Origin: Comamonas sp. lk
GTDB lineage: Bacteria; Pseudomonadota; Gammaproteobacteria; Burkholderiales; Burkholderiaceae_C
Length of the DNA: 64,000 nt
Direction of reading: 5' to 3'
Assembly (NCBI RefSeq): GCF_900564145.1
Contig: NZ_UOOB01000001.1
Location: 2,296,754-2,360,753 of the forward strand
This document shows, piece by piece, positions 54,462-60,416 of the stretch (position 1 is the stretch's first letter; every line of letters starts with the position of its first letter). The notes under the pieces were generated by a model. It did no database searches and was not told the DNA's origin. It was given only the letters and a program-made list of their open reading frames with translations. Position numbers and translations under genes: made by a program.

Positions 54462-56042
54462 TCAGCGCATGGCCCGGCGCAGCCAGGCGCTGCTCCAGTC
54501 CACGGCCATGCTGAGCGCCAGCATGGCAATGATCACGGTGCTGGCCTGGGCATAGTGAAACAGCGACAGCTCAAAGTACAGCAGCTGGCCCAGCCCGCCG
54601 GCCCCCACAAAACCCAGGATGGCGGCCATGCGGATATTCATCTCCCAGCGGTACAGCGTATAGGCCAGCAGCTGCGGCGCAGCGCCGGGAAAAGTGCCGT
54701 AGCAAAACGCCAGCAAGCGGTTGCTACCGGCCAATTGCAGGGCGCGGGCCGGGGCGGCGGGCGTGTTTTTCAAGGCCTCGGCATACAGCCGCCCCAGCAC
54801 GCCCGAGGTGTGCAAAGCCAGGGCCAGGGCCCCGGCAAACGGCCCCAGACCCACGGCTAGCGCCGTGATGGTGGCCCAGACCAGCTCGGGCACGGAGCGC
54901 AGCACGTTCAGCACCAGATTCCATGGCGCCCGCCAGCGCGGCAAGGCCAGCAGCAGGCCGGCCATGGCGGCCAGCAAGGTGCCGACGATGGAAATGGCCA
55001 GCGTCTCCCAAACGCCTTGCAGCACCTTGAGCAGCCAGGGCTGGCTCAGATCCGGCGGGAAAAAGCCCTGCACGAACTCGCCCATGCTGCTGGCTGCTTC
55101 CTGGGTGAACAGGGCCGGTAAATTCATGTCCAGCAGGCGCAGACTGCCCCACAGTCCTGCGATGGCTGCTATCAAAAACAGTGTGCTGCGCCAGCCAAAA
55201 GGCAGGGCGTGCGCGGCGGGCACCGCATCGAGTGCGCTGCGCAGCCAGGTCGAGAGCAGATCGGCGGCCGCTACCAGCAGCATGAAGGCCAGCAAGATGC
55301 TGGCGGCTTCGCCGCCGTTGAGCATCTTCATGGCCTGATCCATGAGCTGGCCCAGACCGCCGGCGCCCACAAAACCCATGACCACCGAAGCGCGGATGGC
55401 GCACTCCCAGCGGTAGACGGTGTAGGAGGTCAGCTCCTTGGCCGCCTGCGGCAGCAGTCCGTAGAGCAGGGCCTGCAAGCGGCCCGCGCCGCTGGCGCGC
55501 AAGGCTTTGGCGGGGGCCGGGTCGGTGGATTCCAGAATTTCGGCATAGACCTTGGCCAGCATGCCGCCATAGGTCAGGCCCAGGGCCAGCACGCCGGCAG
55601 CCGGGCCCAGGCCGAAGACGCGCACGAACACCAGAGCCCAGACCAGCTCGGGAATGCCGCGCAAGATGGTAAGCACGCCACGTGCCACCGGGTTGAGGGT
55701 GACCCGCTCGCGTGCCGCACCGCTAGACAGATAGGCCATGGGCACGGCAATCACCAAGGCCAGCGCCATGCCGGCCGTGGCAATGGCCAGGGTCTCCAGC
55801 GCCGCCTGGCCCAGATAAGCCAGGAACTCGGCACCGGTTTCCGGCGGCAGAAAGCTGGCCAGAAAGTTGCCTATCACCTTGAGGTTGTTGGCGTCCAGAA
55901 ACGGCTGCAGCGAAAAACCCGAGGTCTGCAGCATGGGCCACAGCAAGACCAAGGCAAGCACCAGCCAGGTCAGCCGTCCGCGCGCAGCGGGGTCCCGTTT
56001 CGCGAATCGGGCGCTTGAATCCGACACCACGTTTACCGGCAT
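54462..56042 (-). CDS. Fused tandem PhnE-type ABC permease
   Basis: 526 residues containing two PhnE-like permease domains in one chain; single PhnE is about 260. Domain 1: [44 protein letters not shown] and coupling loop [24 protein letters not shown]; domain 2: [41 protein letters not shown] and [25 protein letters not shown]. Both end with [10 protein letters not shown]. Around twelve helices, equal to a permease dimer. Its start overlaps the ATPase gene stop. It handles phosphonate-like or selenate-like anions, as suggested by the binding protein. Confidence 0.92.
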
Positions 56043-56896
56043 ATCATTGCCGAGGCCGCAGAGTCCGCCAGGGCTTGAGCGGCTGCCGGGATGGCGGCAT
56101 GGGCCGCGCCGCCTGTGCTGTTATGCATGGTGGGCAGAGGTTGAATCTGGCCGTCGGCCGCGGCATACAGCGCCTGCAGCTGCGCCTGCGTCACCTGGGC
56201 TGCAGGCAGATCGAAGGCAATGCGGCCGTCGCGTATGCCGACAATGCGCTCAAAGCAGCTCAGCGCCAGATCCACGGCATGCAGACTGGCCACCAGCGTG
56301 GCCTGGCGCGCCGCAGCTTCCTGCACCAGCAGTTGCACGGTGGCCAGAGACAGGGCCGGGTCCAGCGCCGATACCGGCTCGTCGGCCAGGATCAGGCCGG
56401 GCTGCTGGTAGAGCACGCGGGCAATGCCCACACGCTGCAGCTGCCCGCCAGAGAGCTGATCGCAGCGGGCAAACAATTTGTCTTCAAGCTGCACGCGGGC
56501 CAGGGCTTCGCGCGCGCCGGGAATGTCTTGCGGATAGGCCAGCGAGGCCAGGGCTTTCCACAGCGGCCACTGGCCCAGCTTGCCCGCCAGCACGGCGGTG
56601 ATCACGCGCTGGCGCAAAGGTATGGGGGCAGCCTGGTGCACCGTGCCTATGCGGCTGCGCAGGGCTTTAAGCTGAGCCGCAGAAGTGTGGGCGGATACGG
56701 TTTGCTGCAGCACCATCATGCGGCCGGCCGTGGGCAGGTGGCTGCTGCCTAGGGTGTTGAGCAGCGAGGTTTTGCCTGCGCCCGAAGGGCCGATCAGCGC
56801 CATGTTTTCGCCTTGCGCGGCAGACAGGGAGATGCCCGAGAGTGCCACAAAGCCGTTGGCGTGGGTCAGACCTGCGTCCTCAAGAAGAAAGCTCAT
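56033..56896 (-). CDS. PhnC-type ABC transporter ATPase
   Basis: 287 residues. Walker [21 protein letters not shown]-loop [28 protein letters not shown], signature [20 protein letters not shown], Walker [14 protein letters not shown], and switch His in [14 protein letters not shown]. This set and the 'RSRIGTVHQ...LAGKLG' stretch place it in the PhnC group. The ten-base overlap with the permease gene shows coupling. It energises the fused permease. Confidence 0.93.
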
Positions 56897-57033: not shown

Positions 57034-57933
57034 TTATTTCAGCAAGCCGGCCGACTTGGCTGCCGCTTCGATGCCCACATAGTTTTCGGGCTTGGTAGCG
57101 ATGAACTTGCTGGCGCGCTGCAAGTCCATGATGGCCTTGTGCTCGGGCTTGGCTGGGTCCAGTGCCAGGAAGGCGTCGGTCAGCTTCTTGATGATGGCCG
57201 GGTCCAGATCGCCACGCACCGTCCAGTTGTAGTCAAAGTAGGTGGGGGTGGTGGCGAACACGCGCACTTTGGAGGTGTCAACCTTCTTGGATTCCACCAG
57301 CTTGTCCCACACCGAGGTGTTGAGCACGCCCGCGTCGGCCTTGCCGGCGGCCACAAAGGCCACGGTGGCGTCATGCGCGCCGGAGTAAGCCACGGTCTTG
57401 AAGTCTTTTTCGGGGTTCAGGCTGGCTTGCTGCAGGAAAAAGCGCGGCATCAGGCTGCCCGAGGTGGACGAGGGTGCGCCAAAGGCAAAAGTCTTGCCCT
57501 TGAGGTCGGCCAGAGTCTTGATGTTGGGATCGGCCGTCACGAATTTGCTGGTGAAAACCGCATCTTCGGCGCGCTGCACGATGGGAATGGCCGTGCCGTT
57601 GGTGCGGATCTTCGCTTGCACAAAAGTAAAACCGCCCAGCCAGGCCATATCCAGTTTCTTGGTGGCCAGCGACTCGACCACGGCGGCGTAGTCGGAGACG
57701 GGGGTGAACACCACTTTCATGCCGGTGGCTTGCGACAGGTACTCGCCCAGAGGCTTGAACTTGCGCTGCAGCTCGGTGGGCGCTTCGTCGGGAATGGCCG
57801 ACACGCGCAACACGGCCGGGGTGTCGGCGTGGGCGCTGATGGTCATCAGAGAAGATGCGGCAAAGGCTGCAACAGCCAGACCGCGCAGCGCCGTACGGCG
57901 AGCGGCCATGCGGCCAGCGAAGGAGTGCGTCAT
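57034..57933 (-). CDS. PhnD-type substrate-binding protein (resembles 'putative selenate' family)
   Basis: 299-residue periplasmic binding protein. N-terminus MTHSFAGRMAARRTALRGLA is Tat-like (ARRTALRG) with the hydrophobic core LAVAAFAASSLMTISAHA. Mature start VLRVSAIPDEAPTELQRKFKPL is followed by VVFTPVSDYAAVVESLATKKLDMAWLGGFTFVQAK and DLKGKTFAFGAPSSTSGSLMP. The block IPDEAPTELQRKF with SDYAAVVESL is that of proteins annotated 'putative selenate ABC transporter' rather than classical PhnD, as far as I recall; the substrate is therefore open between phosphonate/phosphite and selenate. Preceded by a structured leader with terminator. Confidence 0.88.
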   Translation of the reverse strand: MTHSFAGRMAARRTALRGLAVAAFAASSLMTISAHADTPAVLRVSAIPDEAPTELQRKFKPLGEYLSQATGMKVVFTPVSDYAAVVESLATKKLDMAWLGGFTFVQAKIRTNGTAIPIVQRAEDAVFTSKFVTADPNIKTLADLKGKTFAFGAPSSTSGSLMPRFFLQQASLNPEKDFKTVAYSGAHDATVAFVAAGKADAGVLNTSVWDKLVESKKVDTSKVRVFATTPTYFDYNWTVRGDLDPAIIKKLTDAFLALDPAKPEHKAIMDLQRASKFIATKPENYVGIEAAAKSAGLLK

Positions 57934-58129
57934 GAAGTGTTCCGTTCAAAAAGCTACCGCCGTCCGGATACACGGCGGTTTAACAGGTCGCAAGCGGGTG
58001 GCTTGCGGCGAATGAGAACCCATAGGCGGTACATCGACCGCTGGCGGCGATTGTTGCGCAAACCCTAAGTCCTCGCGGACCGCTTCGGTTAGGCCCTCGC
58101 AGCCGTGCTCCGGCATTACGCCGAAACTT
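57934..58129 (-). ncRNA. Candidate structured 5' leader (attenuator or riboswitch) of the phnD-type gene
   Basis: 196 bases before the ATG fold into successive stems on the minus strand: GGC-GTAAT-GCC; a three-way junction closed by CCTAA/TTAGG (58064-58093) holding CCG-AAG-CGG and GTCC-GCGA-GGAC with a GNRA loop; GCGGT-CGATGT-ACCGC extended by CCA/TGG; CGCAAGC-CACCC-GCTTGCG; and the terminator. GCCGCC at 58043-58048 can pair with the distal terminator arm, a possible antiterminator. I do not recognise a known riboswitch. Confidence 0.6.
57948..57979 (-). terminator. Leader terminator hairpin before the phnD-type gene
   Basis: Minus strand ACCGCCGT-GTATCCGG-ACGGCGGT followed by AGCTTTTTG: an 8-bp GC stem and T5, ending about 15 bases before the ATG. 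A terminator here only makes sense as attenuation. Confidence 0.8.
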
Positions 58130-58645
58130 TCAGCGGGCAGCGGCACAAGCCCAGTTCAACTCCATGGCCTGCACCTGAAGCTCAGAGCCTTGGCGCAACA
58201 ACGCAAGATTTCCTACAGGAAAAAAACCATGTGCTTTGTACAAGCGCATGGCGGGAGAGTCCGCGACCGTGACGCCGAGGCGAACAAGTTGCGTTCCACA
58301 TTTTTTGGCCCAGGCAAGTGCTTGGGTGAGCAGGGCATGGCCAGCACCCTGGCCGCGCACAGCAGGCTCGACCCACATCTGATAGATGTCGGCAACCCCG
58401 GGCTCCGAGTCGGACAGCTTGCACCAGATAAGTCCGCAGACCTGCTCATCATTGATGGCAAAAAGCACCCGGTCCTTGCCTCCGGTGGCCGCAGCAGCAA
58501 GTCGTTCGGACCAGTTGTCATCTGCTCTCGCGACCTCTGCCTCCCAAGTGCTGCCGAAGGCGTCGGGCGAATCCTGCAGCGCCTGCAGGCGCACATCACG
58601 GTACTTAGACCATTCCTGAGGGGTGACAGCGCGAATGGAGATCAA
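58130..58645 (-). CDS. GNAT family N-acetyltransferase
   Basis: 171 residues from a TTG start (LISIRAVTPQEWSKYRDVRLQAL) with GAGGA at ideal spacing; the frame extends upstream but without GNAT sequence. Acetyl-CoA-binding fold: IYQMWVEPAVRGQGAGHALLTQALAWAKK contains the R/Q-x-x-G-x-G/A motif A, followed by LVRLGVTVADSPAMRLYKAHGFFPVG, the motif B with Tyr and the typical 'GF' ending. Acceptor unknown. It is the gene upstream of the transporter leader, in the same direction. Confidence 0.9.
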   Translation of the reverse strand: MISIRAVTPQEWSKYRDVRLQALQDSPDAFGSTWEAEVARADDNWSERLAAAATGGKDRVLFAINDEQVCGLIWCKLSDSEPGVADIYQMWVEPAVRGQGAGHALLTQALAWAKKCGTQLVRLGVTVADSPAMRLYKAHGFFPVGNLALLRQGSELQVQAMELNWACAAAR

Positions 58646-58835
58646 GAAGTGTCCTCTTTTGCCGGGTTGGCAATGAGCGCTTATCTTCGCATGCCCGCAG
58701 GGCGTGCCCAAGTGGCAGCGGCTGGCCTGCCACTTCAGGAAAGGTTTGAGCGGTCTCTGCCACGCCAAGCGCCACGGCATCCATGGAGGTACATGCATGT
58801 CGTGGCGCTTGAGTTGGTCAGCAAAGGCTGCTAGA

Positions 58836-60416
58836 TCAAAGAATGGCTTCAATCAGGCTGGGGCCGGGGGTGTTGTAAGAGCGCGAGAGTGCCTGAGCCA
58901 GGGATTCCAGATTGCCGACCTTGACGGCGCTCACACCCATGCCCTTGGCAAGATCCGACCAGTCAATGATGGGCCTGTCCAGCGAGAGCATATCTGTGGC
59001 GCGCTTGCCGGGAGTACCCGCACCCACGGCCGCCAGTTCGCCGCGCAGGATGCCGTAGGCGCGGTTCACAAAGATCACCACGGTGACGTTGAGATTTTCC
59101 CGCGCCATGGTCCACAGCGATTGCAGGGTGTACATGCCGCTGCCGTCGCCTTCCAGTGCCAGAACCCGGCGCTCGGGCGCGGCCATGGCGGCGCCCACGG
59201 CTGCAGGCAGGGCAAAGCCGATGGAGCCGCCGCAGCTGGTCAACCAGTCGTGCGGAGCGGCATGTGCCGTCAGCGCATCAAAGCCCCGGCCGGTGGTCAT
59301 GGCTTCCTCTACCACGATGGCATGGGCGGGCAGGGTGGCAGCCAGGGTTTTGCCAATGCCTTCGGGCGTCAAGGGGCCGGACAGGGCGACGGGCTCCTCC
59401 TGCTCGACCAGGTTAGCGGGCGCTAGGCGCTGGGCGTTCAGGGCTTCGCACAGAGCGGACAGAGCTTGCTCCGGGCAGTCTTCCGGTGTGGACAGGGTGA
59501 GGAATTCGCAACCTAGCGCCGTCAGGCGGCCAGGCTTGCCGGGGTAGGCGAAAAATGCCACGGGTGGCTTGGCGCCCACCAAAATGATGCGCTTGAATGG
59601 GGCCAAGGCGGCCAGGCCCAGATCCACGGCATAGGGCAGGCGGGGTACGCGCACCCGTCCGGCGCCGCGCTCCATGCGGGCGGTATAGAACTCGGCGCGC
59701 ACCGTGCACTGCGTGGCAGCGGCAATCTTGCCGGCCAGGGTGGTGCATTTTTCGCGCAGGGCGCGGTCGCCCAGCAGGATCAAGGTGGATTGTGGCGCTT
59801 CACGCAGGGCTGCGATGATGGGCGCCCAATCCTGGGGCAGGGCTGCGCTGGCGGGAGCCGCTTGCTGGCTTACGGCTTGCGCGCTGGCATGCTGCGGTGC
59901 ATCGGACGTATCAGGCACTTCAGACCAGGCCACATTGGCCGGCAGCACCAGGGTGGCAATGCCGCCGGGGCGCGCGTTGGCGCGGCGCACGGCTTGGGCG
60001 CCGTCGGCGGCAATGGCCTCCGCGCTGGCGGTGGTGTGCACCCAGTCGCTCATAGGAGCGGCAATGCCGTGAATGTCCGAGGTTAGCGGCGCATCCAGCT
60101 CCAGATGGCTGATGGCGTGATCCCCGACGATGTTGACAATGCCGGAGCGTGCTTTTTTGGCGTTGTGCAGATTGGCCAGGCCATTGGCAAGACCGGGGCC
60201 CAGGTGCAGCAGCGTGGCTGCGGGGCGGTCGGCCATGCGGTAGTAGCCGTCGGCCGCACCGGTGACCACGGTCTCATGCAGGCCCAGCACGCAGCGCATG
60301 CCCTCGATCTTGTCGAGAGCGGCCACGAAGTGCATCTCGGAGGTGCCGGGGTTGGTAAAGCACACATCCAACTGGTTGGCGATGAGTGTGTGGACTAGTG
60401 TTTCTGCACCATTCAT
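58836..60416 (-). CDS. Thiamine-diphosphate-dependent enzyme (benzoylformate decarboxylase/ALS-like)
   Basis: 526 residues with three TPP-enzyme domains. N-terminal PYR domain: GAETLVHTLIANQLDVCFTNPGTSEMHFVAAL with the ylide-activating Glu region LGLHETVVTGAADGYYRM; central domain GDRALREKCTTLAGKI; C-terminal PP domain CGGSIGFALPAAVGAAMAAPERRVLALEGDGSGMYTLQSLWTMARENLNVTVVIFVNRAYGILRGEL with the GDG...N TPP/Mg motif. The N-terminal NPGTSEMHF pattern is seen in the acetolactate synthase/benzoylformate decarboxylase superfamily of catabolic enzymes. It probably decarboxylates a 2-oxo acid; the substrate is not known. Next to transporter and dioxygenase genes. Confidence 0.9.
   Translation of the reverse strand: MNGAETLVHTLIANQLDVCFTNPGTSEMHFVAALDKIEGMRCVLGLHETVVTGAADGYYRMADRPAATLLHLGPGLANGLANLHNAKKARSGIVNIVGDHAISHLELDAPLTSDIHGIAAPMSDWVHTTASAEAIAADGAQAVRRANARPGGIATLVLPANVAWSEVPDTSDAPQHASAQAVSQQAAPASAALPQDWAPIIAALREAPQSTLILLGDRALREKCTTLAGKIAAATQCTVRAEFYTARMERGAGRVRVPRLPYAVDLGLAALAPFKRIILVGAKPPVAFFAYPGKPGRLTALGCEFLTLSTPEDCPEQALSALCEALNAQRLAPANLVEQEEPVALSGPLTPEGIGKTLAATLPAHAIVVEEAMTTGRGFDALTAHAAPHDWLTSCGGSIGFALPAAVGAAMAAPERRVLALEGDGSGMYTLQSLWTMARENLNVTVVIFVNRAYGILRGELAAVGAGTPGKRATDMLSLDRPIIDWSDLAKGMGVSAVKVGNLESLAQALSRSYNTPGPSLIEAIL

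Follow-up and report, generated by a model that had tools for sequence, protein, structure and literature searches.

Bacteria need selenium import for selenoproteins and 2-selenouridine, and excess selenium is toxic. To our knowledge, the sensing of selenium by bacteria is poorly known. In Escherichia coli, the selAB genes are reportedly preceded by a SECIS-like leader that is bound by SelB.

The leader described here comes from Comamonas sp. lk and lies in the window, i.e., the whole stretch of 64,000 nucleotides that was analyzed. Like riboswitches that employ a translational platform, it is a short 5' leader with covarying stems and conserved loops, has a predicted pairing that masks the Shine-Dalgarno (SD) sequence and recurs before genes of related function; unlike the known representatives of this group, it matches no Rfam model, and a selenium ligand is proposed here from gene context. 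With SECIS and SelB-bound leaders it shares the proximity of selenium genes and a hairpin with a conserved loop, but the motif is located upstream of start codons, not within an open reading frame after UGA, matches no SECIS model, and is found also in genomes that have no SelB match over the cut-off. Tandem-hairpin riboswitches such as mini-ykkC (guanidine-II) are similar in that two small hairpins with conserved loops are separated by a variable stretch, whereas their loops differ from those described here, and the Rfam match is lacking and the genes are different.

On balance, we favor the interpretation that this element represents a new family of cis-acting leader RNAs, consisting of hairpins P1, usually P2, and P3, which serves genes for selenium acquisition and genes of selenium clusters and would be tuned to selenium status. 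A compact RNA tied to both a putative selenium importer and selA/selB clusters would be a candidate selenium sensor, and its presence marks a flavoprotein and a TlpA-like protein as candidate selenium genes.

An Rfam 15 scan of the window yielded a single gathering-level match, a far-off tRNA, and none at the motif; a permissive scan of the window leader (E<=10) gave two poor matches only (E 4 and 5.3). At the motif in 10 further sources, no family reached the gathering score, and E<=5 gave poor sub-threshold matches only. The view taken in the initial annotation that the leader is unlike the TPP, cobalamin, SAM, glycine or guanidine riboswitches agrees with these scans. Among the papers listed by full-text searching of open-licence literature, there was no selenium riboswitch or leader of this kind, and the term 'selen' occurs 0 times in three reviews or surveys (PMC10043782, PMC2864571 and PMC7266159).

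The importer locus and the conserved part of its leader

The leader occupies the gap of 196 bases between the genes for an acetyltransferase and a substrate-binding protein (58129 to 57934, minus strand). Because the flanking genes on either side are on the minus strand, the leader is read on this strand, and a plus-strand reading was dropped. The genes of the locus are:

54462..56042, minus strand: PhnE-type permease, double (two matched PhnE stretches)
56033..56896, minus strand: PhnC-like ABC ATPase (best model TIGR02315, 198.3 bits, below the cut-off of 266.1)
57034..57933, minus strand: substrate-binding protein, assigned by profile score to TIGR04553, 'putative selenate ABC transporter'
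58130..58852, minus strand: acetyltransferase, upstream of the leader

The binding protein scores 379.8 bits against TIGR04553, over the curated cut-off of 250, so that by score the transporter belongs with the TIGR04553 transporters, the latter model itself being a hypothetical equivalog; against the PhnD phosphonate-binding equivalog TIGR03431, the protein reaches 177.8 bits, below the cut-off of 261.1. Accordingly, among the ligands considered in the initial annotation (a phosphonate, selenate or a related anion), a link to selenium rather than to phosphonate is supported, both by this score and by sister copies of the leader in selA/selB clusters (see below). We infer that the window copy of the leader controls the three-gene importer.

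When folded singly, the leader stays within the range of shuffled sequences: the z-scores are -1.43 for the whole leader (17 of 200 shuffles fold as well), -1.20 for its 5' 68 nt (22 of 200) and -1.04 for its 3' 117 nt (28 of 200). Structure beyond chance is therefore not shown by the window sequence alone, and single-sequence folding, not being significant, was discarded as evidence. Since such folding is not convincing, the proposal that the PhnD/selenate-type transporter is preceded by a structured leader with a probable regulatory role needed comparison. The suggested examination of homologous leaders did reveal covariation, which sustains this general proposal but not the detailed fold that accompanied it.

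The boundaries of the conserved part became apparent from a DNA search of the leader against 41 genomes, the window's own and those of 40 relatives, which produced matches in 16, all within the genus. Leader positions 1-68, the part with the supposed three-way junction, are reached by no match in the 41 genomes except the window itself, and every other match begins at position 69 or beyond. By this comparison, only the 3' part of the leader (58044-57947, minus strand) is the conserved element. Among the 17 loci compared with 1.5-kb flanks, the acetyltransferase gene is near the leader only in that of the window. Two features need to be distinguished here:

58059..58129, minus strand: 3' flank of the acetyltransferase gene with the CCTAA/TTAGG element and the GCGA hairpin, outside the conserved leader
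57965..58058, minus strand: 94-nt repeat, a leader remnant, 100% identical to G000:C1:3128438-3128531 (plus strand)

The CCTAA...TTAGG stretch (58093-58064), thought to close a three-way junction, and the GTCC-GCGA-GGAC hairpin (58080-58069) both exist as reported, but they belong to the non-conserved acetyltransferase flank and not to the conserved element. As a whole, the initial annotation was partly right in its observation, and the evidence favors its general idea more than its specifics.

The second copy of the repeat in the window's genome (L017, 1501-1594) follows a choice-of-anchor-I gene and ends inside the P3 loop, and six relatives (L002, L003, L004, L005, L007 and L009) have this same gene upstream of an intact leader with its transporter. 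These observations suggest that the operon, together with the leader starting at about the -10 region, was relocated beside the acetyltransferase gene, leaving a leader remnant behind. The 5' limit of the moved segment agrees with the limit of conservation, and the remnant carries the same change in the P1 loop (A for G) as the window copy. The three-way junction would then be the flank of the neighboring gene, juxtaposed when the operon moved.

Anatomy and covariation of the leader RNA

A starting covariance model built from 16 leaders of the genus detected the motif in 6 of 399 genomes of the family and 8 of 399 genomes of the order (G000, G002 and G006 being in both), and the matches extended to G263 and G418, from two further genera of the family, and to f21, a second family of the order. 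In f21, model R2 found matches at E<=0.05 at 61 places in 53 of 249 genomes and 20 of 68 genera; 6 of these places are training sequences and the other 55 are outside the training set. The window core scores 102 bits (E 5.2e-22) with model R1 and 87.3 bits with R2, the window copy being part of both training sets. The consensus was derived from 76 copies, i.e., the 78 matches minus L126 (genome G922) and L129, which look false. In the window, the element is organized as follows:

57947..58044, minus strand, read 58044 to 57947: conserved core P1-P2-P3, 98 nt, matched by covariance models R1 and R2
58026..58041, minus strand: P1 hairpin GCGGU-CGAUGU-ACCGC; loop consensus CKGNGU
57989..58007, minus strand: P2 hairpin of variable sequence, recognized by inspection in most relatives
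57980..57983, minus strand: UUAA ahead of P3, both A's invariant (76 of 76 copies)
57956..57979, minus strand: P3 hairpin ACCGCCGU-GUAUCCGG-ACGGCGGU
57952..57955, minus strand: AGCU after P3; consensus GGYU

Over the 76 copies, the consensus order is P1 (GCGGU-CKGNGU-ACCGC), a linker, usually P2, UAA, P3 and GGYU. By inspection, P2 is absent in L119, L121, L122, L125 and L127. P3 consists of about 7-9 pairs and its loop often reads UUCCG or AUCCG; the CC in this loop is invariant (74 of the 74 copies with letters there), and so are positions 2 (G) and 4 (U) of GGYU (76 copies). The window copy has an A at 58034 in the P1 loop, where 95% of 74 copies have G, and an A at the first position of GGYU (57955), the sole case among the 76. 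Having broken two near-invariant positions, it may be impaired, and we infer that this mildly deviant copy was carried along when the operon moved.

The alignment of 63 distinct sequences shows changes in both partners for 12 of the 13 pairs and pairing in 97.6% of its 819 cells, and it contains 150 double-change cells compared to 49.7 in shuffled alignments (0 of 500 shuffles as high), alignments A3-A5 having been fitted to the structure of the model, which favors that structure. Sliding the 3' partner by 1-3 columns leaves at most 68.6% of the cells paired. An earlier set of 22 sequences gave 9 of 13 pairs with changes on both sides and 99.3% of cells paired, and the wider alignment of 78 matches gave 12 of 13 pairs and 97.3%. 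The most telling changes are the large ones in the P3 arms (ACCGCCGU/ACGGCGGU, ACCUGCGU/GCGCAGGU and GUCCGGACG/CGUCCGGGC). Given that G-U cells (59) exceed C-A cells (18), the RNA likely corresponds to the minus strand of the window. Comparison among the copies establishes the fold, the strand and the invariant loop and flank positions, along with the gene associations described in the next section, and we consider it almost certain that the motif is a conserved structured RNA.

In L008, L013 and L015, there are about 45 extra bases, apparently one more hairpin, between P1 and P2. Two further interactions were considered on inspection and rejected, namely, kissing of the P1 and P3 loops, where CGG/CCG suits most copies of the genus but CUG loops elsewhere break the pairing, and exchange of the P1 and P3 arms, which is feasible in copies of the genus but not in most copies of the second family.

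Target genes, selenium context and taxonomic range

The motif is found upstream of start codons, and for 74 of the 78 matches the gene that follows belongs to one of four types, which were defined only after the genes had been seen. The commonest target is the TIGR04553 binding protein (38 matches), followed by a flavocytochrome-c-sulfide-dehydrogenase/SQR-like flavoprotein (18), a TlpA-like thioredoxin (11) and a second PhnD-like binding protein (7; the one that was scored reached 212.9 bits with TIGR04553, below the cut-off). Among the f21 matches outside the training set, 52 of 55 precede one of these four types. A second P1-like hairpin (CGAUC...AUCG; CCGAUC-UGYG-UAUCGG type) is present up to 75 nt upstream of P1 in 14 of the 78 copies, of which 6 precede TlpA-like genes, 5 flavoprotein genes, 3 second binding-protein genes and 0 TIGR04553 genes (e.g., L081, L082, L085, L087 and L103).

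The four matches before none of these types are L076, L078, L126 and L129. In L078 (5001-5094), the leader is retained before a decayed transporter operon that has lost most of the binding protein and ATPase genes, and in L076 the genes downstream of the motif are, as named by inspection, an acyl-CoA-dehydrogenase-like gene and then one for a binding protein, a possible fifth target type.

The link to selenium follows from the gene neighborhoods. The selA and/or selB genes lie within about 6 kb of 13 of the 18 flavoprotein copies, typically in the order fdhA-B-C, fdhE, selA, motif, flavoprotein, selB; in long-flank loci, they are also found beside 3 of 11 TlpA copies and 1 of 7 copies before the second binding protein, and beside 0 of 21 TIGR04553 copies, two of which have FdhA. 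An Rfam scan of 10 sources detected tRNA-Sec in 3 and SECIS in 1. Three TIGR04553 genes without the motif adjoin selD, which is located upstream in L154 and L158 and divergently in L160, and a Sphaerotilus plasmid carries the consecutive genes mnmH-ATPase-permease-TIGR04553-selD. SelD is over the cut-off in all 29 motif genomes searched (out of 71 in the two families that have a match; the 29 include G922, which rests on a doubtful match) and in 42 of 49 genomes without the motif (Fisher 0.033); among genomes at least 90% complete, the counts are 27 of 27 with and 38 of 40 without. Because SelD is this common in relatives that lack the motif, its presence is nearly uninformative, and co-occurrence with SelD was discarded as proof of a selenium link. 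Judging from gene context, the targets of the motif likely constitute a selenium regulon.

The identity of the non-transporter targets allows a different interpretation, in which the leader responds to sulfur or thiol redox state (sulfide, thiosulfate or persulfide) and the selenium genes are bystanders: a flavocytochrome c/SQR-like flavoprotein together with a TlpA-like thioredoxin could act on sulfur, and a Paracoccus homologue lies beside SoxYZ in a sox-like cluster. We regard this possibility as rather improbable considering that selA/selB clusters hold the majority of the flavoprotein copies (the above 13 of 18) and that TIGR04553, the target in 38 of 78 cases, is found by selD and mnmH in the cases seen.

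Several loci also encode a transglutaminase-like protein (Transglut_core, tested in L096, 5577-6764, only), encoded downstream of either the TlpA-like gene or the flavoprotein gene. Similar genes are present in L074, L077, L081, L082, L085, L087, L091, L095, L097, L103 and L105, and in L082, L085, L091, L096 and L097 the transglutaminase-like gene shares the locus with selA and/or selB.

Conserved loops combined with variable arms are also compatible with protein binding, and some copies of the motif are adjacent to selB, so the same RNA family might be bound by a trans-acting RNA-binding protein or small RNA, in the manner of SelB on SECIS-like leaders. However, SelB is over the cut-off in 21 of the 29 motif genomes and has no match over the cut-off in the other 8 (7 of 28 when the doubtful G922 is left aside), which makes it unlikely as the binding factor; 7 of the 8 genomes are 99-100% complete, and all 8 encode MnmH as well as SelD. 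Furthermore, no Rfam SECIS model reaches the threshold at the motif, the SECIS_3 match in L042 being located at its fdhA. Overall, recognition by a trans-acting factor, which could be a protein other than SelB, appears unlikely.

The motif ranges over the Comamonas/Delftia genus (including one Acidovorax MAG), two related genera and the second family of the order. Searches at the class and phylum levels, which ran Infernal's stricter filters that lose weak matches, produced weak matches outside the two families in 1 of 321 and 4 of 214 genomes, respectively. On inspection, four of these five are inside long open frames, and the fifth (L191), which lies between genes, is a terminator-like hairpin that lacks the P1 loop; none of the five had a target gene by tblastn, and all were called false. 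In this sampling, the RNA family therefore seems limited to two families of the order. The importer gene is more widespread: 57 of 250 genomes in the order encode TIGR04553, of which 5 have the motif at that gene, 50 show no motif there at E<0.1 (the best being L141, E 0.12) and 2 were left unchecked, so that in possessing such a leader the window transporter differs from most TIGR04553 members sampled in the order.

Transcription start and a predicted translational switch

Three further features of the window are relevant to expression:

58050..58055, minus strand: weak -10-like AACAAT (4 of 6) just upstream of P1, matching in position the TATA[AG]T that importer leaders have outside the genus
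57948..57952, minus strand: U5 run that gives P3 the look of a terminator, not conserved
57940..57946, minus strand: Shine-Dalgarno region AACGGAA

The box TATA[AG]T is present up to 18 nt upstream of the model start in 22 of 25 TIGR04553 leaders outside the genus and in 0 of 150 control windows taken from these loci, and therefore the mRNA of these importers should begin near the base of P1. The 13 leaders of the genus have no TATA[AG]T, and only 2 of them have 5 of 6 or better; at P1 before the other three gene types, the box occurs in 0 of 36 copies, which may be co-transcribed with upstream genes. The promoter-like boxes suggest that transcription probably starts upstream of the conserved hairpins, at the base of P1, and probably downstream of the 5' hairpins listed in the initial annotation. 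The gene association in 74 of 78 cases and the box in 22 of 25 both support the location of the motif 5' of its target genes, and by these comparisons it is very probably a cis-regulatory leader.

The inverted repeats P1 and P3, together with the promoter-like box that adjoins P1 in many importer leaders, could also be taken for an operator dyad in the DNA that binds a transcription factor over the start site. Yet the arms vary by compensatory changes with G-U pairs and the loops are fixed, the opposite of what is expected of an operator, and the box is missing before the other three gene types; we find this reading very hard to accept.

A transcription attenuator, with P3 as an intrinsic terminator relieved by ligand binding, was the mechanism originally proposed. 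The window indeed contains a terminator-like hairpin before the ribosome site, ACCGCCGU-8-ACGGCGGU at 57979-57956 followed by AGC and by U5 at 57952-57948, and several copies of the genus have a U5 run after P3 as well. As a general switch, this does not hold: only 13 of 78 copies (11 before TIGR04553 genes) carry a T4 run in the first 14 nt after P3, and therefore termination is not the common mechanism. Moreover, the conserved GGYU separates P3 from the run, no conserved antiterminator was seen, and the GCCGCC segment to which this role had been ascribed (58048-58043) is not conserved and reads otherwise in relatives, e.g., AAGCGCC. We consider attenuation a poor candidate.

A translational switch is suggested by the potential of CGGA in the SD region (57944-57941) to pair with UCCG of the P3 loop (57968-57965). 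Complementarity of P3 loops to their own SD is 12.53 for 45 distinct loops, compared to 11.76 (sd 0.27) for permuted SDs and to 10.63 for shuffled loops, and 49 of 20,000 permutations score as high as the real pairs; for 65 distinct loop/SD combinations, it is 12.77 compared to 11.98 (8 of 20,000 as high). The test is a modest one, made post hoc and without correction for phylogeny. Four of the 78 matches (L117, L126, L128 and L129) were left out of this analysis, and L015, L078, L102, L103 and the second match in L097, which have no clearly located start, were left out of the scoring. Examples include UCUCC with GGAGA, CUUCCG with CGGGAG, and UCCCC with GGGGA; several loops, including those of L119, L125 and L127, match their own SD no better than an average SD. 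Thus, the P3 loop weakly covaries with the SD, in support of SD masking by a loop pseudoknot, and we are evenly divided on whether P3-loop/SD pairing constitutes the switch.

Under the mechanism that we propose, the leader RNA would set expression according to selenium status. The conserved P1 loop and the UAA-P3-GGYU region would recognize a selenium metabolite or else a factor that reports one; at ample selenium, the P3 loop would pair with the SD and block translation, and when selenium is short, the SD would be freed and translation would proceed. The direction, off at ample selenium, is proposed because the target is an importer. Direct sensing of a ligand by the RNA is a real possibility, if perhaps slightly disfavored. 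Tentatively, the element might even be the first natural class of riboswitches that directly sense a selenium species (e.g., selenophosphate, selenide or selenite), with the P3 loop as anti-Shine-Dalgarno, controlling import and accessory genes in Betaproteobacteria. If the RNA itself binds the ligand, it may need to tell selenium from sulfur, which is chemically hard. The leader could also serve as a selenium biosensor.

Other TIGR04553 genes have leaders with patterns of their own. In family f28 (L150, L151, L153, L156 and L157), a hairpin of the GGCGGCUUAUCGUCCGCC type, a terminator, a second similar hairpin and the start codon follow each other, as seen by eye, which is possibly an analogous or distantly related regulator. 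L162, L180 and L185 have a GUGCCCCGUGCGGGC hairpin in common, located shortly upstream of the TIGR04553 start.
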